From the NCBI GenBank assembly GCA_017848965.1, contig JAFIHA010000040.1, forward strand, positions 18,560 to 82,559: a stretch of 64,000 nucleotides of DNA, in the 5' to 3' direction. Positions 4,672-28,717 of this stretch are shown here, piece after piece. Source of the stretch: Dechloromonas aromatica (nom. nud.). GTDB taxonomy: Bacteria; Pseudomonadota; Gammaproteobacteria; Burkholderiales; Rhodocyclaceae. A model generated the notes under the pieces. It did not search any database, was not told where the DNA came from, and saw only the letters and a program-made list of their open reading frames with translations. Position numbers and translations under genes: made by a program. Positions within the stretch are counted from its first letter, which is position 1. Each line of letters opens with the position of its first letter.

Positions 4672-6669
4672 ATGATTCCTGAACTTGGCCATTTCGCCCT
4701 GATCCTGGCGGCGCTGGTTGCGCTCCTGCTGGGCACCCTTCCCCTGATTGGCGCCCATAACGGCAATCAACCCTGGACCGCCATCTGCCGGCCGGCGGCC
4801 GGCGCCTTCTCCCTGCTGGTTACGGTTTCCTTTGCCTGCCTGACCTGGGCCTTCGTCGCCAACGATTTTTCCGTTGCCTATGTCGCCCAGCATTCCAATT
4901 CCCTGCTACCGCTTCCCTATCGCATCGCCGCGGTGTGGGGCGGCCACGAGGGCTCGTTGCTGTTGTGGATGCAGATGCTCGCCTGCTGGCTGCTGGCGGT
5001 ACGCCTTTTCTCGCGGCAATTGCCGGAGGTGATGCTGGCCCGCGTGCTCGGCTCCCTGGGGCTGGTGTCCTTCGGTTTCCTGCTCTTCATCCTGATCACC
5101 TCGAATCCCTTCGAACGCCTGTTACCTGGCGTTGCCGAGGGGCGCGACCTGAATCCCCTGCTCCAGGATCCGGGCATGGTCATCCACCCGCCGCTGCTCT
5201 ACATGGGTTACGTCGGTTTCTCGGTGGCCTACGCCTTCGCCATCGCCGCCCTCCTCTCCGGTAAGCTCGATGCCGCCTGGGCGCGCTGGTCGCGGCCGTG
5301 GACGACGGGGGCGTGGATCTTCCTGACCCTCGGCATCGCCATGGGCTCGTGGTGGGCCTATTACGAACTGGGCTGGGGCGGCTGGTGGTTCTGGGATCCG
5401 GTCGAAAACGCTTCCTTCATGCCCTGGCTGGTCGGCACGGCGCTGATCCACTCTCTGGCAGTCACCGAAAAACGCGGCAGTTTCAAGAATTGGACAGTGC
5501 TGCTGGCGATTTCGGCGTTCTCGCTGTCGCTGCTCGGCACCTTCCTGGTCCGTTCCGGCGTCCTGACCTCGGTGCATGCCTTCGCCACCGATCCGACGCG
5601 CGGCGTCTTCATCCTGGTCTTCCTGGTCGCCGTGATCGGCACTTCGCTCGCCCTGTTCGCCTGGCGCGCGCCGTCGGTCGGTCTGGGCGGTCGTTTCGGC
5701 CTGATTTCCCGGGAGTCGCTGCTGCTCACCAACAACGTGCTGCTGGTCGTCGCCTGCGCCACCGTCCTGCTCGGCACGCTCTACCCGCTGCTGATCGACG
5801 CCCTCGGTATCGGCAAGATCTCGGTCGGGCCGCCGTATTTCGACACGGTCTTTTTCCCGGTCATGATGCCGGTGCTGTTCCTGATGGGGATCGGCCCCTT
5901 CGCCCGCTGGAAGGAAGCGTCGCTGGGCGAGATCGCGCGCCTCCTGCGCTGGGCTTTTGCCGTCGCCGTCGTGGTGGCGATCGCCGTGCCGCTGCTCTAT
6001 GGCCAGTGGAAGGTACTGACCGCGCTCGGTCTGCTGCTGGCGGCGTGGATCGTCGTCACGGCGCTGATCCACTTCGTCCGTCGCGTCAATCAGACCCGCG
6101 GCGGCCGCGGCTTCGTCGCCGCCGCGCTGGATCAGCCGGCGAGCTTCGTCGGCATGCATGTCGCGCATATCGGTATCGCCGTTTTTGTCGTCGGCGTCAG
6201 CATGGTCAGTACCTATGAAGAGGAAAAGGACGTCAAGATGGGGCCGGGGGATGTCGTCGATGTTGGCGGCTACCAGTTCCGTTTCAACGGCGTCCAGTCT
6301 TTGCAGGGGCCGAACTACCAGGCGGCGCAGGGCGATTTCGACCTGCTTCTGGGCGGCAAGCTGGAGCGCAAGCTGTTCCCGGAAAAACGCAACTACTTCT
6401 CGTCGTCGATGCCGATGACCGAGGCGGCGATCGACGCCGGTCTGCTGCGCGACGTCTATGTCTCGCTCGGCGAGCCGATCGATCCCGACCGGCCGCAAGC
6501 GGAGTGGGCGGTGCGCGTCTATTACAAGCCCTATGTCGACTGGATCTGGGGCGGCTGCGCGATCATGGCGCTGGGCGGCTTGCTGGCCATCCTTGACCGC
6601 CGCTACCGCAGCCGGCGCAAGCCCGCCGCTGATGTCGCCGCGAACGTGCTTGGGGGAAATCAGGGATGA
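4672..6669 (+). CDS. ccmF: Cytochrome c haem lyase subunit CcmF
   Basis: Large polytopic inner-membrane protein of 665 residues that with CcmH ligates haem to apocytochrome c. The WWD domain is clear near residues 235-250 (GGWWFWDPVENASFMPWL). Conserved periplasmic histidines and a membrane-rich architecture fit CcmF/NrfE, and the length is normal. It overlaps ccmG by 4 bp. Confidence 0.96.
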   Translation: MIPELGHFALILAALVALLLGTLPLIGAHNGNQPWTAICRPAAGAFSLLVTVSFACLTWAFVANDFSVAYVAQHSNSLLPLPYRIAAVWGGHEGSLLLWMQMLACWLLAVRLFSRQLPEVMLARVLGSLGLVSFGFLLFILITSNPFERLLPGVAEGRDLNPLLQDPGMVIHPPLLYMGYVGFSVAYAFAIAALLSGKLDAAWARWSRPWTTGAWIFLTLGIAMGSWWAYYELGWGGWWFWDPVENASFMPWLVGTALIHSLAVTEKRGSFKNWTVLLAISAFSLSLLGTFLVRSGVLTSVHAFATDPTRGVFILVFLVAVIGTSLALFAWRAPSVGLGGRFGLISRESLLLTNNVLLVVACATVLLGTLYPLLIDALGIGKISVGPPYFDTVFFPVMMPVLFLMGIGPFARWKEASLGEIARLLRWAFAVAVVVAIAVPLLYGQWKVLTALGLLLAAWIVVTALIHFVRRVNQTRGGRGFVAAALDQPASFVGMHVAHIGIAVFVVGVSMVSTYEEEKDVKMGPGDVVDVGGYQFRFNGVQSLQGPNYQAAQGDFDLLLGGKLERKLFPEKRNYFSSSMPMTEAAIDAGLLRDVYVSLGEPIDPDRPQAEWAVRVYYKPYVDWIWGGCAIMALGGLLAILDRRYRSRRKPAADVAANVLGGNQG

Positions 6670-13516: not shown

Positions 13517-15667
<2,151 letters not shown>

Positions 15668-15834: not shown

Positions 15835-16506
15835 ATGAACCGCATCGCTCCCACCGCGCTTTACCAGGAAGTCGCCGAACGTCTGCGACAACGCATCTAC
15901 GCCCACGAACTGCCGCCAGGCACCTGGATCGACGAACAGAAGCTGGCCGAGCAGTATGGCATCTCGCGCACGCCCTTGCGCGAAGCCCTGAAAGTGCTTG
16001 CCTCGGAAGGCCTGGTCGAACTGAAGCCGCGTCGCGGTTGCTACGTCACCGAAATCTCCCGCCAGGATCTCGACGACATCTTTCCGCTGATTGCCCTCCT
16101 CGAAGGCCGCTGCGCGGCGGAGGCCGTGAAGCGGGCCAAGGCGGCGGATCTGACGGCGCTCCGGACGATCCACGAGAAGCTCGAAGCGGCGGCGCGCGAC
16201 GCGCGCGTCGATGCCTTCTTCGAGGCCAATCAGGAATTCCACCGCAAGATCCAGGAGTTGTCCGGCAACCGCTGGCTGCTGTCGGTGATCCAGGATTTGC
16301 GCAAGGTGCTGAAGCGTTCCCGTCTGCATTCCCTGTCGCTCGAAGGCCGCCTGCAGCAGTCGCTGGAAGAGCACCGGGCGATCCTCGCCCGCATGCTGGC
16401 CGGTGATGCGACCGGCGCCGAGCGGCAGATGTACGAGCACTTGCTGTCCGGACGCGAGGCACTGGCCAGAATTGACGAGCAACCTGGGGGTGGCAAGGCC
16501 GCCTGA
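15835..16506 (+). CDS. GntR-family regulator, FCD (FadR) subfamily
   Basis: 223 residues. The winged HTH covers residues ~8-75 (LYQEVAERLRQRIYAHELPPG, then ISRTPLREALKVLASEGLVEL). The all-helical FCD ligand domain has the metal-ligand pattern: Asp/Glu in the early helices and histidines in FHRKIQEL and EEHRAIL. It diverges from the mutase operon, so control of propionyl-CoA/methylmalonyl-CoA metabolism is likely. The ligand cannot be read from sequence. Confidence 0.88.
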   Translation: MNRIAPTALYQEVAERLRQRIYAHELPPGTWIDEQKLAEQYGISRTPLREALKVLASEGLVELKPRRGCYVTEISRQDLDDIFPLIALLEGRCAAEAVKRAKAADLTALRTIHEKLEAAARDARVDAFFEANQEFHRKIQELSGNRWLLSVIQDLRKVLKRSRLHSLSLEGRLQQSLEEHRAILARMLAGDATGAERQMYEHLLSGREALARIDEQPGGGKAA

Positions 16507-16519
16507 GCCGGGGCGGCGT

Positions 16520-17224
16520 TCAGTCGCCCAGTTGGCGCCAGAGTTTCTCGAACTGCGCCGAAAATTCCCCGACCAGTTGCCGGTCGTTGCTGAGTACCAG
16601 ATTTTCCTCGTTGTACTGGCCGGCGCTGCGCGTCCAGTTGTAGCTGCCGTTGAGCAGCTTTTCGCCGTCGAAGATGGAGAACTTGTGGTGCATGTGCGCC
16701 TCGGTGCGGTCGACGACGACGGCGATCCCGGCATCGCGCAGGCGGGCGATGTCGCTGCCGGCGTCGTACTCCTTGTCGTTGTCGGTGACGATGCGCACCG
16801 CAACGCCGCGCCGATGGGCGGCCAGGACTTCTTTGGCGATGCGGTCGTCGGACAGCGTGAACACGCAGATGTCGATGCGCTGGCGGGCGTGGCGCAGGCA
16901 TCGCTGGATCGTCTGCAGGCAGTCGGCGCCGGGGCTGAAGCTGGCTTCCTGGACAATTTGCGCGCTCGGCAGGCGCTGGGCGTCAAGGCTGCGGACGACG
17001 CCTTCCAGCCATTTCAGCAGCGCTAGTTGCAGCGGGTCGGCAAGGCGTTCCCGGACCAGATCGAAGGAATGGTTGCGCAAGCGGCGCAGGTCCTCGTCGC
17101 GCAGCGCGGCGGCATCCAGGGCGGCGGCCAGTGCGCGTTTCTCGTCGTCGCTCAGGCGGCCGTCGGCGATGCCGCCGGCGAGCAAGGCCAGGATGTCCTC
17201 GATGCTGATTGCCGCGTCGCTCAT
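16520..17224 (-). CDS. Phospholipase D-like (HKD) protein, end of the PspA/flotillin operon
   Basis: 234 residues. The N-terminal ~80 residues are helical and acidic (IEDILALLAGGIADGRLSDDEKRAL). A single PLD domain follows, with one HKD motif at about residues 183-200 (HHKFSIFDGEKLLNGSYNWT), the pattern of Nuc-type nucleases and mitochondrial PLD6, which dimerise to build one active site. No signal peptide is seen. The ATG at 17224 overlaps the stop of the giant ATPase gene, so it is translationally coupled to it. Whether it cuts nucleic acid or phospholipid cannot be told from sequence. A position at the end of a membrane-stress operon makes either plausible. Confidence 0.82.
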   Translation of the reverse strand: MSDAAISIEDILALLAGGIADGRLSDDEKRALAAALDAAALRDEDLRRLRNHSFDLVRERLADPLQLALLKWLEGVVRSLDAQRLPSAQIVQEASFSPGADCLQTIQRCLRHARQRIDICVFTLSDDRIAKEVLAAHRRGVAVRIVTDNDKEYDAGSDIARLRDAGIAVVVDRTEAHMHHKFSIFDGEKLLNGSYNWTRSAGQYNEENLVLSNDRQLVGEFSAQFEKLWRQLGD

Positions 17225-20200
17225 GGTTTGCTCCGGGGTTTGGGTTTTTCCGGTGGCGGGTTGCCGCCGGCTTCCTTGTCGAGCTTGTCGAGGTAGGTGC
17301 TGACCCGCTTCATTTCGTCCCACATCGAGTGGTCGAGACGGATCTTGTGGTAGGTCGCGGTGACCAGCGGCAGCAGGACCTTTTCGTAGGCCTTGACCAT
17401 GTCGCCGACGACGCCGGCGAATTGCGAGAGGTCGCCGGGCTCGACATGGACGCTCGGCCTGACCGCGCGCAGCCCGGCCTCGATGCGGTCGAGACCGTCG
17501 CCCAGGCGGTCGGCGAGCGCGCTGTCGGGCTTCAGGCCGTCGACGGCGCGGGCGACATCGAGCAGCGAGGCGGCGATGCGCGTGCCGGGGTCGCTGTCGT
17601 CGCCGCCCAGCTTGCGCTGGCGGACGAAGGCTTCCTTGATCGCGGTCCACCGCGCCCGCTCGTCGGCGCTCGGGGTGCCGAGCAGTTCGGCGAGCTTGAG
17701 CAGGTTTTCCTCGGCACCGGTGGTCAGCGTCTGCGCTTCGCCGCGGTAATGGTCGCGCAGCAGGGCGTCGATTTCCTCGTCGCGCATGATCGCGGTGACC
17801 TTGCCGGCGAGTTTGGTCATGTTGCGGTAGCTGCCCTGCAGCTTGAACGGCGGCTCGGTCCGGTAGCTGTCCTTCTGCGCCGCCGAGTCGATGTAGGCCA
17901 GGTTGACCTTGAGCAGCAGGTCGCGGATGCGGAACAGGCGCTGCATCAGCGCGACCAGCTCCTCCTGTTCGAGGGCGCTGTAGGGATGGCTGAAGGCGCT
18001 GCCGGGGATTTCCTCGCCCTCGGCGAGGCGGACCAGGAGTTGAACGTCCTTCGGATCGCGCGAAGCCAGCGGCAGCAGCGCCGGGTTGGCGGTCAGGCTG
18101 TTCTCGATGTAGGACAGCGCGAACAGCGCTTCGCGGCCGTCGAGGACGTCGCCCAGGTTGTAGATGTCGGCGCGGTTGGCCAGCATGTCTGGGATCTTGA
18201 AGACGTCGCCGGACTCGGTGTAGGGGTTGCCGGCCATGACCACGGCGAAACGCTTGCCGCGCATGTCGTAGGTGCGCGCCTCGCCCTTCCAGACGCCTTC
18301 GATGCGCCGCGTACCGTCGGCCAGGGCGATGAACTTCTGCAGGAACTCCGGGCTGGTGTGCTGGATGTCGTCGAGGTAGAGCATCACGTTGCTGCCCATG
18401 GCCAGACCGAGGTTGAGCTTCTCCAGCTCCTGGCGGGCGGCGCCGTGGGCGGCAGCAGCGGGGTCGAGGGCGGTGACGTCGTGGCCGAGGACCGGGCAGT
18501 TGATGCGCACGAAAACCAGGCCGAGACGGTCGGCGACGTATTCCATCAGCGTCGTCTTGCCGTAGCCGGGCGGCGAGATCAGCAGCAGCAGACCCATGCG
18601 GTCGGTGCGATTGCCGGCGCCGGCGGTGCCGAGTTGCTTGGCCAGGTTATCGCCGAGCAGTGGCAGGTAGACTTCGTCGATCAGCCGGTTGCGCACGAAG
18701 GTGGACAAGGGCTTGGCCTGGAACTGGGCGATGCCCAGCCGGGCCTTCTCGGCGGCGAGCAGATCGTGGCGGCACTGCTGGAACTGCTCGAAAGCTGGCA
18801 CGATCCGGTTGCGGTGATCGTCGAAGCGCTGCCAGAAATCGTTGAGGTTGAGCGCCAGGCGGCCGTCGACGATGCGTGGATGTTCGCTGCGCAGGCCGTC
18901 GACCACGGTGGCGAGGCTGGCGTTGACGCGTCGGCGCGGCAGCGCCACGGCCAGGCGCCCGGCGGCGTCGTCGATCCAGTCGACGGCGCCGGGCGCCTGG
19001 GTGACGGCAAAGGCCGCCACCCAGGCGCGCACCAGATGCCAGCGTTCGGCGGGCTCGGCGCTGTCGAGATCGCGCTGCCAGTCGCCATGTTGCTGCGTGC
19101 GTTCGAGTTCCTTGACCAGCGCGTCGGCGAGGTCGTCAGCCGGGCCGGCGATCACCCAGTGGGCGTCGGCGCGCTCGGCAGCCAGTTGGCGAATCAGGTA
19201 AGCCGCCGCCTGTGCGCAAAGTACCGGCAGGTGCTCGCCGTCGGTGGCGAAGGCGCCTTCGCCGTCTGCTGCCGGGTCGAATTCCCGGGCAAAGTGTTGC
19301 AAGGCGTGTGCCGTGTTGGCTTCGAGCCGGGTCAGTGCGTCACTGGCGGCGAATTGCAGTTGCAGTTGCAGGGCAGTGCGCGCCTGGCGCTGCAAGGCCT
19401 CGCGGGCGGCGAGGAAGCAGCCGTGCTGCCAGTAGAGCAGGGCCAGCACCCGCTGCTTCGGCCCCCAGGCGAGGAGGCCGGCTTCGCCCTGCATGCGGAT
19501 CAGGGCGGCGAGCAGGCGCGCCGCGTCGTCGTCGTGGATGCCTTTCTGATAACCCTCGCGGTAACGCGTCGCCGCGTACTGGCGGACCAGTCCGGGCAGG
19601 GCTGGGCTGTCGCCGCTCGCCGCCTGCTGCAGTTCGGTCCACGACATGCCGTCCTGCCCGTTGAGCGCGGCGTACAGCAGACTGCCGGCGAGGTATTCGG
19701 CGCGGGCCAGCGCCGGCGTTTCGGAAATCAGCGGTTGTTCCCAGAGCGCCCGGAAGGGGTCGAGGCGAGTGTCGTCGACGCTGGCGTAGTAGTCGGTACC
19801 GGTGAGGTGCCAGGCCAGTTTTTCGTCGCGCGGTACCAGCGTCAGGTCGAGCGCCTGTTGGCTGACGGTGAAGGCATGGCGGCCGAAGCGCAGCGTGTTG
19901 CCGTCGTCGCCGAGCAGTTCGCGGCGGTCGCGGACGCTGCGCAGGGCCTGGTCGCGGGCGGTCTTGATGCGGGTGTCGAGGTCGTCGGCGGCGACGCCGT
20001 CGCCCAGCGCACGCAGGTCTTCGACCAGCTTCTGCAATTTGCCGATCAGCGGATCGGCGGCGAAATAGCCATGAACTTCGGCGATTTCCTGGAACTTGGC
20101 GACGCGCCGGGGAATACCGTCGAGGATGCGGGCGGCGGCATCGTTGAGCGAACGGACGCGGCGCTGGCGGGCGTCGAGCAGACTCTGCCGACGCGCCGAC

Positions 20201-22512
20201 AGGGCTTCGTAGACGGCTTCGCGCTGGCTGGCGATGTCGGCGAGGAAGTTCTCCTGTTCGGCAAAGCGCCCTTCCAGTTCCTCCAGTCGGGCGAGCAGGC
20301 GGGTCAGCGCTTCGTCGCATTTCTCCGGCGTGTCGGCGAATTCCAGCGCGCTTTCGACGGTCTGGCCGAAGAGTTTGAACTGGGCGCCGAATTCGGCGGC
20401 GGCTTCGGCGCTGCCCAGATTGCGGCGCCGATTGCGGGCTTCCGCGCGCAGGCGGTTGGTCTCGGCGTAAAGCACGGAAATGCGGTCGAGGATGTCGGTG
20501 CGCAGGACCGCATCGCCGCCGGGCAGGTTGCCCAACTGTTCGCTCAACAGGTCGAGACCGCCGGCGACGGCGTCGAGTTCGCCAAGAATCTGCTCGAGCG
20601 CCTGAGCCGTCGCCGCCTGCGGGATGCGAGCGGCGAGCGCGTCGAGCAGGTGGCGCTGCCCGGCGAAGGCGTCCGGCGTCGCGAGAAACTGCATGGCGCG
20701 CTCGCCGACCCGGTTCTGTTCTTCGGCCAGTGCCTGATCCATCGCCTCGATGCGCGGCAGATCGGCGTAGCGCAGTTCCTTCAGCGTCTGCAGGCGGCCG
20801 CGCCGCTCGCGCAACAAGTTGAGGGCGCTGACGAATTCGTCGGAACTGCGCCACAGCATGCCGGCGATCCGGGTCAGCAACTCGCGCTGTTCGGTTTCGG
20901 CGGCAGCCAGGGCCTGTGCCGTCTCGCGGCGGATGCTGTCGACCTTTTCGAACTCGGCCAGGGTCAGGCGGGCGCCTTCGCCGATCGCCCGCAGTTCGTC
21001 GCCGAGTCCGCCGGCTTCTGCTTCGCCGATCCAGAAATAGGCATCCTGGGCGCGGCTGCACTGGCGGATCAGGTCTTCGTAGGCGGTTCGGGTTGGCACC
21101 TGTTCGCGCACGGCGCGGGCGATTGCGTTCAATTCGGAGATGCCGCGTACCAGTTCGGCGTTGCCGATGCGGCCGAAGAAACCCTGACCGGCGCTCTGCT
21201 GGCCGGCGTGTTCGTCGCTGCTGAACGGCGTCTGCCACAGCTGCATCGGGTGTACCCGGGTCGGCTCGCCGCCGTCGGCCTGGAAGACCAGGATGCGGCC
21301 GTCCGGGAAGCGGGCGTAGCCGTTGCCGAGGATCGGCGCGCCGAGGGTCTTGTCGATCAGGTTGTAGGTGAACAGCGCGTAATGGCCAAGGCCGGGCTGG
21401 TAGAAGACGTAGAGCACGTCCTCGCCGTTCGGCGAGCGCAGGACGCGCTTGAAACGCAAGTTGTCGAGCATCGCTTCCGGCAGGTCGAAACGCTTGTGCT
21501 CGCCGGACTGAAGGTAGTAGCCGCCGGGGAAGATGACGCCGTGGTCTTCCGGCAACTGGATGCAGGAGACGCCGATGGCGTCGATGCGGGTGACGCTCTG
21601 CGTGCGCGTGTTGTAGACCAGGTAGCGCACCGTCTGCTCGCGGTAGGGCTTGATGCGCAGCAGGATCAGCAGGCCGAGCCGGGCGTAGGCGACTTCGGCG
21701 TCGTCCAGCGACTGCGTCTTGTCCTCGACCGCTTCGCTGTAGATGCCGAGCCCGCTCTCGGTGTTGTTCTCGATCTTGACCGTCAGGTCGCCGCCGATGG
21801 TTTCGACGAAGACCGTGTCGAGAATGTTGATGTGCGGATGACGGCCGCCGACCTGGTCCTCGCGCCGGGTCGGCGTCCATTCGAAATCATGGCTCGGCGG
21901 CAGCGCCATGTCGCGTTCGCCGCGATTGTCGATGTAGCGCAGGCTGCCGTCGTTTTCCAGGCTCCAGCGGAAAACGCGCAGGTCGTGCAGTTGCTGGCCG
22001 ATCTGGAAGGCGGCGAGCAGCTTGTCCTGGGTGACGCGCAACTGGGTCAGCGTCGCCTGCTTGTAATAGGCGTGCAGTTCACGGAAATCGGAAACGAAGC
22101 GCTGGTCCTCGAGGAAGCTGCCGGCCAGTGGCAGGGCTTCGAGTTCGTCGCCGCCGCCCGTCTCGGCCAGCCGGTAGAGGGCGAAGACGTCGCCGACGGC
22201 GGTTTCCTTGCGCAACCCGATGAAGACGTTGTAGCCGAAGAGCAGGCGGTCGCCGATGCGGACGATGTCGCGGGCGACGCAGTTGTTTTCGGTGCGGGCC
22301 CGGGTGCGCAGGATCAGCGACTGCTCGTTGCGGCCGAATTCGGCAACGCGCGCCGCGTTCAGCGCCTGGGTCCGGGTCAGCAGCGCGTCGCCGTGACCGG
22401 CGAGGCGTTTCTTCAGCAGCTCGTAACTGCCGCTGTCGCCGACCATGGCGTCAGTCGGGTCGGTCGTCGCGGTAGCCGGGATTTCAGGTGCAGGCGTATT
22501 CGTGGAAGCCAT
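17221..22512 (-). CDS. Giant AAA ATPase (DUF3686-type, annotated elsewhere as 'DNA repair ATPase')
   Basis: 1763 residues, cytoplasmic, with no membrane segment. The N-terminal ~600 residues look like a repeat-rich domain with beta-strand character (RDIVRIGDRLLFGYNVFIG, the segment containing VYNTRTQSVTRIDAIG). Long helical coiled-coil stretches occupy roughly 500-1000 (e.g. around ERRGRLQTLKELRYADLPR). The AAA module is near residues 1300-1480, with Walker A LISPPGYGKTTLMEYV, Walker B MLYLDDIQHTSPEF and sensor-like VVMAGNPYTES, resembling MoxR-class ATPases. The DUF3686/'DNA repair ATPase' label is from memory, and the repair role is not supported here. The neighbours (PspA, flotillin) suggest an ATP-driven remodeller of membrane-associated assemblies. 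It overlaps the PLD-like gene by 4 bp. Confidence 0.85.
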   Translation of the reverse strand: MASTNTPAPEIPATATTDPTDAMVGDSGSYELLKKRLAGHGDALLTRTQALNAARVAEFGRNEQSLILRTRARTENNCVARDIVRIGDRLLFGYNVFIGLRKETAVGDVFALYRLAETGGGDELEALPLAGSFLEDQRFVSDFRELHAYYKQATLTQLRVTQDKLLAAFQIGQQLHDLRVFRWSLENDGSLRYIDNRGERDMALPPSHDFEWTPTRREDQVGGRHPHINILDTVFVETIGGDLTVKIENNTESGLGIYSEAVEDKTQSLDDAEVAYARLGLLILLRIKPYREQTVRYLVYNTRTQSVTRIDAIGVSCIQLPEDHGVIFPGGYYLQSGEHKRFDLPEAMLDNLRFKRVLRSPNGEDVLYVFYQPGLGHYALFTYNLIDKTLGAPILGNGYARFPDGRILVFQADGGEPTRVHPMQLWQTPFSSDEHAGQQSAGQGFFGRIGNAELVRGISELNAIARAVREQVPTRTAYEDLIRQCSRAQDAYFWIGEAEAGGLGDELRAIGEGARLTLAEFEKVDSIRRETAQALAAAETEQRELLTRIAGMLWRSSDEFVSALNLLRERRGRLQTLKELRYADLPRIEAMDQALAEEQNRVGERAMQFLATPDAFAGQRHLLDALAARIPQAATAQALEQILGELDAVAGGLDLLSEQLGNLPGGDAVLRTDILDRISVLYAETNRLRAEARNRRRNLGSAEAAAEFGAQFKLFGQTVESALEFADTPEKCDEALTRLLARLEELEGRFAEQENFLADIASQREAVYEALSARRQSLLDARQRRVRSLNDAAARILDGIPRRVAKFQEIAEVHGYFAADPLIGKLQKLVEDLRALGDGVAADDLDTRIKTARDQALRSVRDRRELLGDDGNTLRFGRHAFTVSQQALDLTLVPRDEKLAWHLTGTDYYASVDDTRLDPFRALWEQPLISETPALARAEYLAGSLLYAALNGQDGMSWTELQQAASGDSPALPGLVRQYAATRYREGYQKGIHDDDAARLLAALIRMQGEAGLLAWGPKQRVLALLYWQHGCFLAAREALQRQARTALQLQLQFAASDALTRLEANTAHALQHFAREFDPAADGEGAFATDGEHLPVLCAQAAAYLIRQLAAERADAHWVIAGPADDLADALVKELERTQQHGDWQRDLDSAEPAERWHLVRAWVAAFAVTQAPGAVDWIDDAAGRLAVALPRRRVNASLATVVDGLRSEHPRIVDGRLALNLNDFWQRFDDHRNRIVPAFEQFQQCRHDLLAAEKARLGIAQFQAKPLSTFVRNRLIDEVYLPLLGDNLAKQLGTAGAGNRTDRMGLLLLISPPGYGKTTLMEYVADRLGLVFVRINCPVLGHDVTALDPAAAAHGAARQELEKLNLGLAMGSNVMLYLDDIQHTSPEFLQKFIALADGTRRIEGVWKGEARTYDMRGKRFAVVMAGNPYTESGDVFKIPDMLANRADIYNLGDVLDGREALFALSYIENSLTANPALLPLASRDPKDVQLLVRLAEGEEIPGSAFSHPYSALEQEELVALMQRLFRIRDLLLKVNLAYIDSAAQKDSYRTEPPFKLQGSYRNMTKLAGKVTAIMRDEEIDALLRDHYRGEAQTLTTGAEENLLKLAELLGTPSADERARWTAIKEAFVRQRKLGGDDSDPGTRIAASLLDVARAVDGLKPDSALADRLGDGLDRIEAGLRAVRPSVHVEPGDLSQFAGVVGDMVKAYEKVLLPLVTATYHKIRLDHSMWDEMKRVSTYLDKLDKEAGGNPPPEKPKPRSKP

Positions 22513-22541
22513 GGCGGGGCGCCCCTAGAGGTGGTTCACAG

Positions 22542-22567
22542 CGCTCCGCCCGGCGGCGGGCGGAGCG
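22542..22567. other. GC-rich intercistronic hairpin between flotillin and ATPase genes
   Basis: CGCTCCGCCCG and CGGGCGGAGCG form an 11-bp perfect stem with a 4-base loop in the 78-bp gap. No T-run follows on the minus strand, so attenuation or mRNA end protection is more likely than full termination. Confidence 0.6.
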
Positions 22568-22590
22568 TTTCCGGAGAATCGCGCCGGTCG

Positions 22591-24702
22591 TCAGTCGGCG
22601 CGCTTGCCGATGCCGGCGAGCAGGGTGCGCAAGGCTGCCTGCTGTTCGGCGCTGCCGTCGCGCATGACCTTGGTCAGCAAGGCGGCGACCGAGAGATTCT
22701 GCAGTTCGCCGGCCGAACCGCCGAGGGCGCCGACGATGTCGCGGACGTCGCCGACCAGGTCGCGGTCGCCGCTCAGGTGATCCTTGAGCGCCACCTGCAG
22801 CGTGCTGCTCTTGCCGATCGTCGCGTCGATGCCCTTGCCGATCGACAGCGCGTTGACGAAGCGGTCGAAGTAGTCGCCCTCGCCGCCGACGATGTCGATC
22901 TTCGCGTTGGCCAGCGCGGTGCCGAGCACTTCGGCCTGCTGGCGGGCGATCGAGGTCTGGGCGTCGATCGCCTTCAGGGTGGCGATCTGCGCGTTGTCGA
23001 GGCGCATGCGGAACTCTTCGTGTTCGCGCGTCGCCGGGTTCATCGCCTGCATCGCTTCGAACTTCTCGCGCAGGCCCTTGGCTTCGGCCTGGAAGCGGGC
23101 TTCGACGACTTCCGCCTCGGCGTGGCCGGTCTTGGCGATGACCTCGGCGTCGGCGGCGCGCACCGTGACCTGGGCCAGGCCGAGCTTTTCCTTGCCCTGG
23201 GCTTCGGCTTCGAGCTTGGCGCGCAGCGCCTCGGCCTCGGCCAGACCGAACTTGCTGACGGCGTCGGCGTCGGCCATCTTGACCTTGGCGGCGACCATGC
23301 CCTGCTTTTCCTCGGCGTCGGCGGTGACCATCATCACCTTGGCCTGGGCCAGGCCGGTGGCGGCAGCCAGCGCCTCGACGCCTTCGGCTTCGCGCTTCTT
23401 GGCTTCGGCTTCCTTCTCGGCGACCTTGAGGTGGGCTTCGGCCAGCGTCTGTTCCTCGGCCGCCTTGTGCCGCGCCTTGCGCTCCTGGGCTTCTGCCGCC
23501 TTGACTTCGAGCACCAGTTTTTCTTCCGCCTGGCCCTCGGCCAGGATGACGACCGATTTCTTGGTGCGGTCGGCCTCGGCGACGACGCGTACTTCCTTGA
23601 TCGCCTCTTCCTGTTCGGCAACCGTGCGCTCGACGATCACCCGTTCGCGGATGACGTCGGCGATCGCCTTCTTCTGCACTTCGACGGCGCGGTCCTTGTC
23701 GATGCGCTGCAGGGTGACTTCCTTCTCGCGGTCGACGATTTCCAGTTCGCGGGCGCGGGTGACCTTTTCTTCCTCGACGGCGACCGCCCGTTTGCGGTTG
23801 TTTTCCGCGACTTCCTTCTCGCGCTGGGCGTTTTCCTGTTGTACTGCGATCGCCTGTTCGGAGAGTAGACGGGCCAGCTCGGCCTTGGTGTGTTCCTCGG
23901 CCTGGATCTTCGCCGTTTCCGCCTGTTCGCGGGCACGCACCGAGGCGACCTCGCGCTGCTGGCGCGACTGGGCGTCGGCCTGCTGGCGTTCCAGTTCGAG
24001 CAGCGCTTCCTGGGTTTCGACGTCCTTCTTCTTGATCTGCATTTCCTCGTTGCGGCGCAGCTCGTTGGTGCGCACCCGTTCGACGGCGGTCAGTTCGGTG
24101 ATCTTCTTGATCCCCTGGGCGTCGAGGATGTTGTGGGTGTCGAGTTTCTGCAGCGGGGTTTGTTCCAGGTAATCGATGGCGGCATCTTCGAGCACGTAAC
24201 CGGAAAGATCGTCGCCGATCTGGCGGACGATCTCGTCGCGGAAACGGTCGCGCGCCTGATACAGCTCGATGAAATCCATCGACTTGCCGACCGTCTTCAG
24301 CGCTTCGGAGAACTTCGCCGAGAACAGGTCTTCGAGGATTTCCGGGCTTGAGGCGCGATCGCAACCGATGCCCTGCGCCACCTTGAGGACGTCCTCGGCG
24401 GTCTTGTTGACGCGGACGAAGAACTTGACCTTGATGTCGGCGCGGATGTTGTCCTGGCAGATCAGGCCTTCGCTACCGGAGCGGTCGATTTCGATCGTCT
24501 TCAGCGAGATTTCCATCAGCTCGGCCTTGTGGATGATCGGATAGACCATGCGGCCGGTGAAGGTGACTTCGGGTTCGGCGCGCAGCGTGTTGACGATCAT
24601 TGCGTAGCCCTGTTCGACCTTGTGATAGAACTTGGCGAACAGCGCAATCATGCCGAGGCTGAGTAAGACCAGCACCGCGACGGCGATTATTACCGGCTCC
24701 AT
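22591..24702 (-). CDS. Flotillin-family protein (YqiK-like), SPFH/Band 7 domain
   Basis: 703 residues. One N-terminal membrane helix (IIAVAVLVLLSLGMIALFAKF) precedes the SPFH domain (~residues 25-210, including IRADIKVKFFVRV). A very long charged coiled coil rich in Glu/Ala/Lys spans about 210-560, followed by a C-terminal flotillin tail. It should oligomerise at the inner membrane and organise lipid domains. The length exceeds E. coli YqiK (about 550). It follows the YqiJ-like gene by 40 bp, the same pairing as yqiJ-yqiK. An AAGGGG ribosome site precedes the ATG. Confidence 0.92.
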   Translation of the reverse strand: MEPVIIAVAVLVLLSLGMIALFAKFYHKVEQGYAMIVNTLRAEPEVTFTGRMVYPIIHKAELMEISLKTIEIDRSGSEGLICQDNIRADIKVKFFVRVNKTAEDVLKVAQGIGCDRASSPEILEDLFSAKFSEALKTVGKSMDFIELYQARDRFRDEIVRQIGDDLSGYVLEDAAIDYLEQTPLQKLDTHNILDAQGIKKITELTAVERVRTNELRRNEEMQIKKKDVETQEALLELERQQADAQSRQQREVASVRAREQAETAKIQAEEHTKAELARLLSEQAIAVQQENAQREKEVAENNRKRAVAVEEEKVTRARELEIVDREKEVTLQRIDKDRAVEVQKKAIADVIRERVIVERTVAEQEEAIKEVRVVAEADRTKKSVVILAEGQAEEKLVLEVKAAEAQERKARHKAAEEQTLAEAHLKVAEKEAEAKKREAEGVEALAAATGLAQAKVMMVTADAEEKQGMVAAKVKMADADAVSKFGLAEAEALRAKLEAEAQGKEKLGLAQVTVRAADAEVIAKTGHAEAEVVEARFQAEAKGLREKFEAMQAMNPATREHEEFRMRLDNAQIATLKAIDAQTSIARQQAEVLGTALANAKIDIVGGEGDYFDRFVNALSIGKGIDATIGKSSTLQVALKDHLSGDRDLVGDVRDIVGALGGSAGELQNLSVAALLTKVMRDGSAEQQAALRTLLAGIGKRAD

Positions 24703-24742
24703 GGATTTCCCCTTGCTTGAGTTTGAGTGAATTGAAAACAGG

Positions 24743-25384
24743 TCAGTCGATCTGGTCGTCGGCGGCGATCAGGTAGCGGGCGCCGGCCGCGTCGTAGTCG
24801 AGGATGCGGGCAGTAGAACCCTTGCCCAGGGTGTTCGGCGTTTCCGCCCACACCCGGATATTGACCGGCGCGCCGCGGGTGGCGACTTCTGCGCGGCCGA
24901 ATTTCTCATCCACCGTCGCCGTCAGCACCTTGCATTCCTGACCGACCAGCGCCGCGTTGGAGATCGCGCTGTGGGTGACGAAGAGGCCGCGCAGCGGGCG
25001 GATCAGCCTGGCGGTGACGGGAATCGCCAGGGCCAGCGCGACCAGCATGACGGCCAGTCCGGCAATGCCGCGCAGCAGGCTGGTCGGCACCAGCGGCAGC
25101 AGCCACATCGCCGCCAGGCAGGTGACGGTCCACGAGACCAGCACGAGCAGGCTGAGGACGACCGAGAATGGCACGCCGTTCAGCCCCATGGCGACCAGGT
25201 AGCTGGCCAGATCGCCGATTTCGTCGACATCGGCGTCGGTGTGCAGCTCGGCCTCGATGACCGGCCCCGAATCGATGTCGACGATGCCGATCAGCGACAG
25301 CAGCCAATAGACGAGGACGACGCCGAGCAGCACCGTGTAGATGACGCTGGGAAAGGAGGTCGCTGCGTCGAGGAAAGCGATCAT
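24743..25384 (-). CDS. YqiJ-like inner-membrane protein with OB-fold (NfeD-related)
   Basis: 213 residues. Three membrane helices (near residues 14-36, 76-98 and 105-128) are followed by a C-terminal OB-fold-like beta domain (ALVGQECKVLTATVDEKFGRA, then VNIRVWAE), as in NfeD/YqiJ partners of flotillins. It overlaps the upstream RHH-like gene by 4 bp and precedes the flotillin gene, consistent with a membrane complex. Confidence 0.87.
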   Translation of the reverse strand: MIAFLDAATSFPSVIYTVLLGVVLVYWLLSLIGIVDIDSGPVIEAELHTDADVDEIGDLASYLVAMGLNGVPFSVVLSLLVLVSWTVTCLAAMWLLPLVPTSLLRGIAGLAVMLVALALAIPVTARLIRPLRGLFVTHSAISNAALVGQECKVLTATVDEKFGRAEVATRGAPVNIRVWAETPNTLGKGSTARILDYDAAGARYLIAADDQID

Positions 25385-25722
25385 GGGGCCGTTCTTTCTG
25401 TCCTGGCGTTGGCGAAGTCGATCAGTACGCGGGTCACCCTTTCCTTGATCGCCAGCCGGTCATCCGCCGCCAGCCCGTAGCGTTCGGCGAGCAGTGCGTA
25501 GTCGGCGGCGGTCAGCGAGACGGTCAGGCGCGGGCGCTTCGGCCGGCTGGCAGTGGGCAGGCCGAGCAGGTGGCGGATCTGGTCGGAGGTCGAGCGGTTG
25601 GCCTCGAAAGCGGTGCGGCGCACCGTTTCGAGCACCTTCTCCTCGACGTCGAAGGCCACCTGGACGGCCTTGATCGCCGCGTCCGAGCTTTGCCAGCGTG
25701 CCGGTTTGCGGGTGACGCTCAT
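25381..25722 (-). CDS. Small RHH-like protein within the PspA/flotillin operon
   Basis: 113 residues, basic. The segment AIKAVQVAFDVEEKVLETVR followed by TAFEANRSTSDQIRHLLGLP reads like a ribbon-helix-helix unit (strand, helix, NRSTSDQIRHLL helix). A second half with LTVSLTAADYALLAERYG may repeat the pattern. It overlaps pspA and the YqiJ-like gene by 4 bp on each side. A DNA-binding role, perhaps at the operon's inverted-repeat operator, is inference. I do not recognise a named family. Confidence 0.65.
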   Translation of the reverse strand: MSVTRKPARWQSSDAAIKAVQVAFDVEEKVLETVRRTAFEANRSTSDQIRHLLGLPTASRPKRPRLTVSLTAADYALLAERYGLAADDRLAIKERVTRVLIDFANARTERTAP

Positions 25723-26426
25723 GCGTCGCCGGTCGGTTTTGCCAGGCGGGCGCGGATGCGCTCCATGACCTTGCGCTGGCGGTCGGCGTCCTGGCCGATG
25801 CCGGCCTCGGCGAGCTTGGTCGCCAGCGCCTTCTCGCCGAGTTCGCGGTCGAGCTGGTCGGCCGCCTGCATGCGGTCGGCCAGATGTTCGTGGCGCTGCT
25901 TGATGCGTTCCAGCGATTCGCGGGCGCTGGCCAGCCGCGAGCCGCTGCTGCCGATGTTGTCGGAGATCGACTGAGTCGCCTTATAGACGCTTTCGGTGGT
26001 CTTGGCGATGGCGATTTCCCGCTCATGTTCGCGGATCTTCGCTTCCGACGCCTTGATCAGTTCCTTCAGCTTGCTCACCTGGGCGGCGAACGAGGTCTGT
26101 GCCTTGCGCTGTTCCTCAAGCTCCAGTTCGATTGCCGCCACCTTGCCGGCGACTTCCTCGGCCAGCGCTTCCTGGGACTTCTCCAGGGCTTCCAGCGCCA
26201 GACCTTCGTAGCGCGCCATCTCGCCTTCCAGGCGGGTGACCGCCCGGGCGCTCTGCATTTCCCTGGCCATCACGTCGGCCAGACTGCTGCGCGCTTCGAG
26301 GATGCTCTGCTTGGCGTCGATGATTTCCTGCTCGTAGATGCGCGTGGCGTTGGCATCGACGACGTTCTCGGCCAGTTCGCGGGCGCTGCCGCGCAACAGG
26401 GTCACCACTTTCTTGATCACGGACAT
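25719..26426 (-). CDS. PspA/IM30 (ESCRT-III-like) protein, YjfJ type
   Basis: 235 residues, almost entirely helical coiled coil. The N-terminal amphipathic helix (MSVIKKVVTLLRGSARELAEN) would bind membrane. The C-terminus LATKLAEAGIGQDADRQRKV matches the LAEAGIG tail of E. coli YjfJ rather than classical PspA. Such proteins assemble into membrane-bound rods or helical scaffolds. The ATG at 26426 was chosen because it begins the amphipathic helix; upstream in-frame residues are not PspA-like. It lies 11 bp after the YjfI gene. Confidence 0.9.
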   Translation of the reverse strand: MSVIKKVVTLLRGSARELAENVVDANATRIYEQEIIDAKQSILEARSSLADVMAREMQSARAVTRLEGEMARYEGLALEALEKSQEALAEEVAGKVAAIELELEEQRKAQTSFAAQVSKLKELIKASEAKIREHEREIAIAKTTESVYKATQSISDNIGSSGSRLASARESLERIKQRHEHLADRMQAADQLDRELGEKALATKLAEAGIGQDADRQRKVMERIRARLAKPTGDA

Positions 26427-26437
26427 GTTCGTCTCCT

Positions 26438-26857
26438 TCAGTGCAGAAATTCGGACAGGGCGTCCAGTGCATCGAGCGCGTTGTCGCTCAGGGCGGCGAC
26501 GTCCTGGGCGATGTCCTCGCCGCGCGCGTCGCGCGCCAGGGCGCCGGACAGCACGTAGCGCTCGCCGATGCGGCCGAACGAGGAAAGCGGCACCGACGGG
26601 TTGAGGTCGAGCAGCGTTTCGAGCAGTTCGGTGCGGCGTTCCGGCAAGACCTCGCTGTCGCTCCACAGGTAGCACAGGCACAGGATCTGCGAATCCGAAC
26701 AGGTGATGAAGATCGGCAGTTCTTCGCGCGTCTCGATGCTGACCTGGACCACCGGCACCGGTCCGGCAATCGGATGCAACTGTACCGCGAGGCCGCCCAT
26801 CAGGCCGCCGACCAGCTTGTCCAGCCCATCCAGCTTTTCCTTCAGTGTGTTTTCCAT
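26438..26857 (-). CDS. yjfI: YjfI-family protein (DUF2170)
   Basis: 139 residues, soluble. The C-terminal part (VPLSSFGRIGERYVLSGALA, then ALSDNALDALDALSEFLH) aligns closely with E. coli YjfI (PLSSVGI..., LVDNALDLAEI). YjfI also sits directly before the pspA homologue yjfJ in E. coli. The molecular role is unknown to me. It is the first gene of the seven-gene operon, with an AGGA ribosome site, downstream of the operator-bearing promoter at 26888-26929. Confidence 0.88.
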   Translation of the reverse strand: MENTLKEKLDGLDKLVGGLMGGLAVQLHPIAGPVPVVQVSIETREELPIFITCSDSQILCLCYLWSDSEVLPERRTELLETLLDLNPSVPLSSFGRIGERYVLSGALARDARGEDIAQDVAALSDNALDALDALSEFLH

Positions 26858-26887
26858 GTTGTCCTCGTTATGGTTCGTGTGGCATCC

Positions 26888-26916
26888 AGACTAGAAGTGG
26901 AGACATAAAATGTCAA
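26888..26916 (-). promoter_or_regulatory. Sigma-70 promoter of the yjfI-pspA-flotillin operon
   Basis: On the minus strand, a perfect -35 TTGACA (26911-26916) is followed after 17 bp by TAGTCT (26888-26893). It is placed correctly for the yjfI start at 26857. The -35 lies inside the inverted repeat at 26902-26929. Confidence 0.65.
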
Positions 26917-26929
26917 GACATTTTATGTC
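26902..26929. promoter_or_regulatory. Perfect 13+2+13 bp inverted-repeat operator
   Basis: GACATAAAATGTC (26902-26914) and GACATTTTATGTC (26917-26929) are exact reverse complements separated by AA. Each arm is also a small palindrome (GACAT-N3-ATGTC), so the site could hold two dimers. A further GACATTT lies nearby at about 26954-26960. The repeat covers the -35 of the operon promoter, the position of a repressor site. Confidence 0.75.
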
Positions 26930-26995
26930 GGACGACGCATGTCGCTATGATATGACATTTGCCGGTGGTTCATGACCTGGGTGTGACGCGAAGAC

Positions 26996-27031
26996 AATAA
27001 AAAACCCCGACCGGCGAACCGGTCGGGGTTT
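26996..27031 (-). terminator. Terminator of the actP operon
   Basis: AACCCCGACCGG and CCGGTCGGGGTT form a 12-bp stem (27003-27030). On the minus strand it is followed by a T-rich run (complement of AATAAAAA). Confidence 0.88.
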
Positions 27032-27052
27032 CGGGTGAAAGCCGCAGCGGGT

Positions 27053-28717
27053 TTAGTGCTTGGCTGCGCCAGCAGCGCCGTAGCCGGTCTGGGCACGGAC
27101 GTACTGGTCGTCGAAAGCTTCGATTTCGCTCTTGGCGCGGACGCTGGCGTCGCTCTTCGAGAAGATGAAGGCGAGCAGGAAGGCGACCGGCATCGCGAAC
27201 AGCGCCGGCTGGGTGTAGGGGAAGAGCGGGGCGGCGTTGCCCAGCACGTCGACCCACACCGACTTCGAGAAGAGCACGAACAGCACCGCCGAGATCAGGC
27301 CGCCGTAACCGCCCCACAGCGCGCCGCGCGTGGTCAGGCCCTTCCAGTACATGGAGAGGATCAGCACCGGGAAGTTGGCCGCGGCGGCAACGCCGAAAGC
27401 GAGGCCGACCATGAAGGCGATGTTCTGCTTCTCGAAGGCGATGCCGAGGATGATGGCGACGAAGCCGAGGGCGATGGTGGCCATCTTGGAGACGCGGATT
27501 TCCGCAGCTTCGGAAGCCGTACCCTTCTTGATCACGCGAGCGTAGATGTCGTGCGAGATCGCCGAGGCGCCGGCCAGGGCGAGACCGGAAACCACCGCCA
27601 GGATGGTGGCGAAGGCAACCGCGGCGAGGAAGCCGAGCAGCATGTCGCCACCGACCGCCTTGGCCAGGTGCATGGCAACCATGTTGCCGCCGCCGATCAG
27701 CTTCTTGCCGATTTCACCGCCTTCGAAGAACTCGGGGTTCTGGCCGACGATGATGATGCCGGCGAGGCCCATCAGGAAGATGACGTTGAAGAAGTAGGCG
27801 ACGAAGCCGGAAGCGTAGAGCACCGACTTGCGGGCTTCCTTGGCGTCGGTGACGGTGAAGAAGCGCATCAGGATGTGCGGCAGGCCGGCGGTACCGAACA
27901 TCAGGCCGAGGCCGAGCGAGATCGCGGTGACCGGGTCGGCGAGCAGGCTGCCCGGGTGCATCAGCTTTTCACCCAGGGTGTGGACCGACATCGCCTGATC
28001 GACCAGGGCGCCGAACGAGAAGCCGAACTGGCTCATCGCCAGCACCATGACCAGCGTGCCACCGGCCAGCAGCATGCAGGCCTTGATGATCTGCACCCAG
28101 GTGGTGGCAACCATGCCGCCGAAGGTGACATAGACCATCATCAGGATGCCGACGGCGAAGATCGCGACGTTGTATTCGAGGCCGAAAAGCAGCTTGATCA
28201 GCTGACCGGCGCCGACCATCTGGGCGATCAGGTAGAAACAGACGACGACCAGCGAGGAAACCGCGGCCATGGTGCGCACCTTGCCTTGATCCAGGCGGTA
28301 GGCGGTGATGTCGGAGAAGGTGAACTTGCCCAGGTTGCGCAGACGTTCGGCCATCAGGAAGAGGATGATCGGCCAGCCGGCGAAGAAGCACAGCATGTAG
28401 ATGTAGCCGTCGTAGCCCTTGCTGTAGACCATCGCTGTCAGACCGAGCAGGGTGGCGGCGGACATGTAGTCACCGGCGATCGCCAGGCCGTTCTGGAAAC
28501 CGGTGATGCCACCACCGGCGGCGTAGCAGTTGGACGTCGACTTGGTGCGGCTAGCCGCGCCGGAGGTGATGCCCATCGTCATCGCGACGAACAGGCAGAA
28601 CATGATGATGGCGTGCCAGTTGGTGGCTTGCTGTTCCGTCGGGCCGAGGGCGTCGCCGGCGGCAAAGGCCAGAGTGCTCAGGCCGAGCAGCCCGAGCGCG
28701 GGAATGATCTTGCGCAT
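27053..28717 (-). CDS. actP: Cation/acetate symporter ActP
   Basis: Sodium:solute symporter of 554 residues with about 13-14 membrane helices and an apparent N-terminal signal segment ([21 protein letters not shown]). Family marks are [23 protein letters not shown] (cation site region, helix 1) and the long cytoplasmic end. It should import acetate and perhaps other short carboxylates. The start overlaps the stop of the DUF485 gene by 1 bp (TAATG), the usual yjcH-actP arrangement. Confidence 0.93.

Follow-up and report, generated by a model that had tools for sequence, protein, structure and literature searches.

The window examined here, a 64,000-nucleotide stretch of contig JAFIHA010000040.1 from Dechloromonas aromatica, contains a seven-gene operon which we judge, at a probability of roughly 70%, to be an alternative phage shock protein (PSP) operon, i.e., an envelope-stress operon, that entered the gntR-actP interval as a single block and is auto-repressed by the product of its third gene. 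The kind of operon is known; the part that appears to be new is a regulatory layer, predicted from sequence, in which a repressor encoded by the third gene would act on a conserved operator. On the minus strand, the genes follow in the order yjfI, pspA, an open reading frame (ORF) for a 113-residue ribbon-helix-helix (RHH)-like protein, yqiJ, flotillin, AAA, and PLD. An initial annotation of the locus included neither the identity of the third gene nor the palindromes in the promoter.

The putative tandem RHH protein is predicted to bind the GACATNNNATGTC palindromes that overlie the yjfI -35 box and, once bound, would block transcription of all seven genes, its own included. Upon membrane damage, PspA would be recruited, YjfI with its CesT/Tir fold may relay the signal, and the repressor would release the DNA. 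The products would act at the membrane, where PspA would supply a scaffold, YqiJ and flotillin a microdomain, the large AAA+ protein a remodelling activity, and the PLD protein lipid cleavage. In a sister lineage, a BacA-type YjfI with a basic N-terminal segment would itself repress via a different palindrome. The elements on which this proposal is built, namely, the operon, the operator, its overlap with the promoter, its co-distribution with the RHH gene, and the content of a regulon in genome G066, are those that can be read from the DNA itself.

Operator palindrome and its co-occurrence with the RHH gene

Two 13-bp palindromes of the sequence GACATNNNATGTC are located upstream of yjfI, over the -35 box. 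They are the only two copies in the 4.24-Mb draft genome to which the window belongs, and the reversed control pattern occurs at no place in that genome. Twelve congeners without the operon contain eight copies in all, with at most two per genome and far apart from one another; two adjacent copies are therefore far beyond chance. Loci were scanned from -250 to +260 of the longest ORF, a wide range that was used because several starts are over-called. The exact palindrome was found near the yjfI start in 23 of 23 yjfI loci with an RHH gene and at least 100 bp upstream, the window not counted and L041 (15 bp upstream only) left out, in none of the 32 yjfI loci without an RHH gene, and nowhere in the remaining 1.73 Mb of these loci. 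Copies with one mismatch are present in three RHH-free yjfI loci (L014, L066, and L074), where GACATCACATGT plus one base overlaps the second palindrome, ATYACATGTRAT, described below. The sequences surrounding GACATNNNATGTC otherwise differ widely among loci. The last operator copy includes an exact TTGACA in 22 of 24 loci, followed after 16 to 18 bp by TAnnnT in 16 of 24, compared to 4% in shuffled sequences. Since TTGACA and the spaced TAnnnT are kept across loci, the operator is best placed on the -35 box. A scan for sigma-70 consensus promoters returned none at threshold in the operon region, and the layout rests on the cross-locus conservation instead.

The RHH gene was looked for in 21 genomes with the AAA operon; 15 were without it, two had it in the AAA locus (L018 and L087), and four had it elsewhere. 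The exact operator was found in none of the 14 RHH-free AAA genomes that could be judged (L031, with 62 bp upstream, was left out). Where the RHH gene lies outside the AAA locus, the operator precedes the AAA operon in L017 and L059 and not in L083 and L050. Among 12 loci with an RHH gene and yjfI-pspA, but without an AAA gene in the stretch, nine carry the exact operator at yjfI and one a one-mismatch copy; the two others, from one genus, have none. No operator site was found in three RHH loci without yjfI, and RHH-containing genome G861 has no exact operator anywhere. These data bear on the possibility that the palindrome is real but bound by another factor, the RHH gene being a bystander linked by descent. 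The RHH gene and the palindrome are largely inherited together, their pairing rests on co-occurrence, and some RHH loci have no site, all of which would suit a bystander. We nevertheless consider it unlikely, as the pair also accompanies yjfI-pspA operons without an AAA gene, as the operator precedes the AAA operons of L017 and L059, whose genomes encode the RHH protein at another place, and as the operator is missing from the judged AAA genomes without the gene.

In genome G066, 10 operator sites were found versus four sites for the reversed control. Seven of them, one of which is ambiguous, have the core A[AT]T. Two precede yjfI-pspA; the others precede a lipoprotein-like gene with DUF350 and spermidine synthase genes, a separated yqiJ-flotillin-AAA operon, a short ORF with PspA and PspC genes, a short ORF with NfeD and two band-7 genes, and a band-7 gene (L183), the last site lying within a longer hairpin, possibly a terminator. 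The remaining three sites have other cores and are no more numerous than the control. The PspA and flotillin-AAA modules of G066 carry the operator on different contigs, which argues that they work together. The initial annotation had made its reading dependent on shared regulation of these modules; the split modules of G066 speak for it, and in two further genomes with split modules, the AAA locus (L083 and L050) is without the operator. In some genomes, the RHH version may command a whole membrane-stress regulon comprising both PspA types, PspC, NfeD-band-7, flotillin-AAA, and a membrane spermidine synthase, which, as part of the two-design reading given below, we hold to be slightly favored. 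A further exact operator in G1150 (L185:4590) precedes a gene of the sigma-70 family (Pfam sigma-70 regions), which we take to be RpoH-like; the genome encodes the RHH regulator, but with four reversed-control matches in it, this site may be due to chance. Additional sites in L187 (TraB-like by eye), L188, and L189 (the latter two inside ORFs) were judged to be probable chance matches.

The third gene product

For the 113-residue protein, an alignment of a 39-member family was built. Its structure model displays two extended-helix-helix units with a predicted template modeling score (pTM) of 0.40. The closest folds are F-relaxosome chains, single-chain Arc, and AvtR, with 14 to 18% identity over 76 to 82 residues; a search of the model with Foldseek alone had no significant result. 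The F-relaxosome chains are presumably TraY of the F plasmid, which resembles the model in fold and is itself a relaxosome protein. No curated RHH profile of Pfam matches the window protein, and among the 39 family members, the Pfam matches were to NikA-like (2 members; best E value, 1.3e-4), RHH_1 (3 members; 0.0069), and FitA-like (2 members; 0.064) families, with unrelated Pfam families touching as many members as the RHH families do. Vps4 MIT chains matched by the RHH profile (E value, 0.17) and the single match of a smaller profile (E value, 0.3) were taken as chance. According to the model, the third gene product looks like a tandem RHH protein and is a putative dedicated repressor.

RHH proteins include activators and antitoxins, and the FitA-like matches, weak as they are, would fit such a role. 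An activator or an antitoxin-like co-factor in place of a repressor is nonetheless improbable, given that the site covers the -35 box itself, as suits occlusion, that the six other gene products match no toxin family in the Pfam scan, and that the proposed counterpart BacA acts negatively (PMC10948618).

A possible second regulatory design with BacA-type YjfI

In all 32 loci without an RHH gene, YjfI is long (at least 203 residues) and has a conserved basic N-terminal segment of approximately 50 residues, which is present in none of the 26 YjfI proteins of RHH-containing loci (two duplicates included). The MazE-like antitoxin model of Pfam touches 15 of 29 members of this segment, with a best E value of 0.013 and below the cut-off where shown; a profile of the segment gave no convincing match against the PDB (best E value, 0.44). 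Another palindrome, ATYACATGTRAT, occurs with at most one mismatch in 29 of the 32 RHH-free yjfI loci (the exceptions being L056, L064, and L075), often in tandem, with at least two copies in 17 loci. It was found in none of the 23 RHH-containing loci and six times elsewhere in the 1.73 Mb. Genome-wide, eight genomes with such loci contain eight exact copies, six of which lie at the operon by coordinates; three of the eight genomes have none. Four genomes of the RHH type have no exact copy, and the control gave none either. Two extra ATYACATGTRAT sites in G228 were judged to be probable chance matches.

Only from residue 64 onward does the 206-residue BacA-type YjfI align to the solved DUF2170 chain 8q8o. 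We take this chain to be the BacA structure of PMC10948618. That structure could not explain the negative effect of BacA because the N-terminal segment is absent from it. According to the published text, bacA-F of Pseudomonas aeruginosa form one operon of six genes by reverse transcription-PCR, and a bacA transposon mutant has BacB raised 7.2-fold, BacC 7.9-fold, BacD 13.5-fold, and the next two products 8.9- and 6.1-fold; an interaction of BacA with BacB (PspA) is mentioned there as unpublished data, and a sigma-54 promoter is proposed (PMC10948618). The main text of that paper contains no word starting with "DNA-binding," "repress," or "palindrom." As downstream proteins rise in the mutant, BacA is best read as a repressor. 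Like the window, the bac operon combines YjfI (BacA), PspA (BacB), and later genes in one unit, whereas the Pseudomonas loci examined have no RHH gene, a long BacA with the N-terminal segment, and the other palindrome. The window YjfI scores 34.9 bits against the cut-off of 300 of the BacA equivalog NF050185, over the DUF2170 part only, and thus falls outside it.

Because the RHH gene is missing, the basic segment is present, and the promoter palindrome differs, BacA itself is likely the repressor in the sister lineage. We therefore lean, by a little more than an even chance, toward two alternative repressor designs, i.e., a free tandem-RHH protein on GACATNNNATGTC or a DNA-binding segment fused to a PspA-binding YjfI (BacA) on ATYACATGTRAT. 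A tree of the AAA protein built with FastTree needs a single change to get from one design to the other; with one evolutionary switch between them, the locus counts are not independent. Control of the RHH-free operons by sigma-54 (-24/-12) promoters was considered and rejected, as a crude scan revealed no general enrichment in the 32 RHH-free loci over 25 RHH-containing yjfI loci (the duplicates L022 and L115 were still part of this comparison); weak sites may have escaped the scan, and at two RHH-free loci, L044 and L061, the sites score above those of all 200 shuffles.

Operon layout and published relatives

The seven genes are real and constitute one operon (Table 1), as had been stated in the initial annotation. 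Five boundaries are tight, with 11 bp, two 4-bp overlaps, 40 bp, and the ATGA overlap of AAA and PLD; their number had been given correctly, but out of a total of seven instead of six, the sixth being the flotillin-AAA gap of 78 bp. The coupling of a 1763-residue AAA protein to a single-HKD protein by the ATGA overlap likewise agrees with the ORF coordinates. The flotillin, YqiJ-like, and 113-residue proteins have no significant Pfam match.

Table 1. Features of the operon region and their positions in the window
Feature	Position	Strand	Remarks
yjfI-like, DUF2170 (CesT/Tir-like)	26438..26857	-	139 aa; PF09938 E 1.3e-24; short form without BacA-type N-terminal extension
pspA / yjfJ	25719..26426	-	235 aa; PF04012 E 6.2e-34; E. 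coli YjfJ E 1.6e-19
Tandem RHH-like protein, proposed operon repressor	25381..25722	-	113 aa; alignment, model, operator tracking
yqiJ/yuaF-like membrane protein	24743..25384	-	213 aa; family profile vs E. coli YqiJ E 1.2e-10
Band-7/flotillin protein	22591..24702	-	703 aa; 30% identity to E. coli YqiK over 446 aa, E 1e-39
DUF3686-DUF7902-AAA+ protein	17221..22512	-	1763 aa; PF12458 E 4.9e-197, PF25472 E 4.3e-23
Single-HKD PLD-like protein	16520..17224	-	234 aa; PF13091 E 6e-31
Operator copy 1, GACATAAAATGTC on + strand	26902..26914		exact; on minus strand, two preceding T complete the -35 hexamer TTGACA
Operator copy 2, same palindrome, opposite orientation	26917..26929		15 bp further upstream
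Terminator-like hairpin past upstream actP, sets operon apart	27001..27032	-	14-pair stem, then T-rich tail

The yjfI-yjfJ and yqiJ-yqiK modules had been described as lying apart in E. coli K-12, and this holds: YjfI (E value of 9e-8 for the window YjfI), YjfJ, YqiJ, and YqiK are all homologous to window proteins but are encoded at two separate loci, yjfIJKLMC and yqiJK. For YqiJ, the homology was detected with the family profile only, the single-sequence search with the window protein giving no match. Neither operator palindrome was found in the stretches of the two E. coli loci that were examined. In the classical pspF-pspABCDE system of E. coli, PspF is a sigma-54 activator that is held back by PspA, resulting in feedback on its own operon. 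The window operon shares PspA with this system but would use a repressor on a sigma-70-type promoter instead of a sigma-54 activator, and neither PspB nor PspC is among the Pfam matches of its seven proteins.

An alternative PSP operon with DUF2170-PspA, band-7/flotillin, large AAA+, and YqiJ/YuaF genes has been described, with a PLD protein in some Proteobacteria and a general ESCRT-like analogy being discussed (PMC11237479). The first-group PspA operon in the text of that study has the same gene set as the window, which contains the DUF2170 (CesT/Tir)-PspA dyad (PF09938 and PF04012, adjacent), the protein with transmembrane, band-7, and flotillin parts together with YqiJ/YuaF (by homology to E. 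coli YqiK and YqiJ), the large AAA protein (DUF3686-DUF7902-AAA by Pfam), and the PLD protein with an intact HKD motif (PF13091). The proposal of a membrane-remodelling operon uniting PspA, YqiJ-flotillin, AAA, and PLD is thus supported, yet its gene set is not new. In the published text, an RHH gene comes up only for the spermidine-synthase group, where it is in some cases the last gene, whereas in the window it is the third gene; the part of the text on the first-group operon mentions no operator, in contrast to the palindromes of the window.

Distribution and acquisition

The AAA loci comprised the best 80 of 578 matches from named genomes, nine loci from a phylum search, and seven reached via the RHH gene; after removal of the duplicates L022 (identical to L016) and L115 (identical to L035), 94 remained. 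As 80 loci were picked for similarity to the query and seven for the RHH gene, the shares of partner genes do not describe the whole AAA family. Flotillin and yqiJ are present in 79 of 79 AAA loci with at least 6 kb upstream, PspA and YjfI in 55, and the RHH gene in 23. PLD was found in 28 of the 72 loci that also have 2 kb downstream, and 24 of these 28 have PspA. The constant partners of the AAA protein are flotillin and YqiJ. As they accompany it in every one of the 79 loci, the association is not due to chance, and the comparison with the 55 loci for PspA ties AAA to flotillin first and to PspA second. Co-occurrence of the gene families, on which the initial annotation had staked its reading, holds for flotillin and YqiJ, in 55 of 79 loci for PspA, and in 28 of 72 for PLD.

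Several loci differ from the window in gene content. In L015, a 181-residue TFIIB-type zinc ribbon protein (PF13453; 10747 to 11292, minus strand), which the window lacks, is encoded between flotillin and AAA; gaps of similar size are found in several other Burkholderiales operons. In L011, the AAA and PLD genes are separated by a 182-residue multi-pass ORF (4946 to 5494, minus strand) that looks rhomboid-like by eye only, and the AAA-PLD gap is similar in size in several other Pseudomonas loci. At the expected place of pspA in L018 (approximately 14480 to 14915, minus strand), there is a coiled-coil-like ORF missed by the PspA profile, possibly a worn or replaced PspA.

DUF3686 is rare in the phylum, with 10 of 397 genomes including that of the window; it was found in one of 60 relatives (the window genome alone) and in none of 35 congeners. 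The operon is flanked by the convergent genes gntR (15835 to 16506) and actP (27053 to 28717), both named by eye. Among the 35 congeners, the gntR-actP gap amounts to about 80 to 190 bp in 13, about 2 kb in 11, and 18.8 kb in one (G008); in 10, the two genes are on different contigs or were not both found. In the two congeners compared, the flank homology ends near both gene ends. As the gaps vary and the flank homology stops there, the operon looks like a single block at a variable site, and it looks to have been horizontally acquired as one block between gntR and actP. Judged by eye, the block in the G008 gap contains two large ORFs resembling membrane enzymes, a two-component pair, and ORFs that look related to transposition. 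A plasmid search gave no match for the RHH protein and 12 records for the AAA protein, all below 60% identity.

The AAA and PLD proteins

In the AAA protein, the Pfam families AAA (E value, 5.8e-6) and AAA_5 (7.6e-6) tie, and an alignment of eight sequences shows an invariant Walker A motif and an invariant GNP motif. In the comparison with PDB profiles, the best 60 of 90 matches reach the Walker region only. No MIT domain was detected at a Pfam E value of ≤0.1, and the AAA protein is hence not Vps4-like by this feature. The initial annotation had proposed that it disassembles or drives a PspA scaffold as Vps4 does for ESCRT-III, a role that may hold alongside the regulatory reading. Location in the same operon, the shared operator of the split G066 modules, the presence of PspA in 55 of 79 AAA loci, and the general ESCRT analogy in the published text (PMC11237479) would agree with it. 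The missing MIT domain and the restriction of the PDB matches to the Walker region count against it, as do the 24 of 79 loci in which no PspA match accompanies AAA, flotillin, and YqiJ; because of these 24 loci, flotillin or YqiJ ranks ahead of PspA as a candidate substrate. We regard a Vps4-like role as doubtful, with perhaps one chance in four left to it by our reckoning.

The PLD protein has invariant HxKx4D and NEEN motifs in five sequences. Its N-terminal 90 residues preceding the HKD domain are partly conserved in these sequences and TerB-like by eye, with no Pfam match. Mitochondrial cardiolipin hydrolases are the nearest solved relatives (9lkx, E value of 2.6e-36; 4ggj, 5.3e-35), ahead of Nuc (1byr, 2.7e-16), and this predicted kinship suits a membrane system. 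The cardiolipin hydrolase-type PLD fold also includes nucleases. For the suggestion that the protein cuts invading nucleic acid, no direct support was obtained, its nearest solved relatives being these hydrolases. Its scores stay far below the NCBIfam cut-offs for DrmC (38.7 versus 133 bits), DpdK (30.5 versus 100 bits), and NucT (55.6 versus 297 bits). A response of PSP genes to phage does not by itself make them a defence system. An anti-phage function of the operon, with PLD as a nuclease effector and AAA as a sensor, accordingly has little to recommend it: its sporadic, inserted occurrence in the genus, the weak PADLOC similarity of PLD to DrmC and others, and the upregulation of the genes PA3728-PA3732, termed phage shock proteins there, in every phage-infected sample of one P. 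aeruginosa study (PMC12041424) are set against these scores, the cardiolipin hydrolase relatives, and the absence of PLD in 44 of 72 loci.

Implications for the control of PspA-flotillin-AAA operons

The control of PspA-flotillin-AAA operons has been unclear so far. For bac, the published text offers only the proposed sigma-54 promoter (PMC10948618), and in the literature searched, with subscription journals thinly covered and figures and supplements outside its scope, no description of such an RHH regulator in the alternative PSP operon was found. With the third gene product as a named candidate regulator, with exact sites, and with a matching prediction for BacA, control of this operon becomes directly testable. 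The common operator would provide an independent link between the PspA and flotillin-AAA modules, and the negative effect of BacA gains a possible physical explanation.

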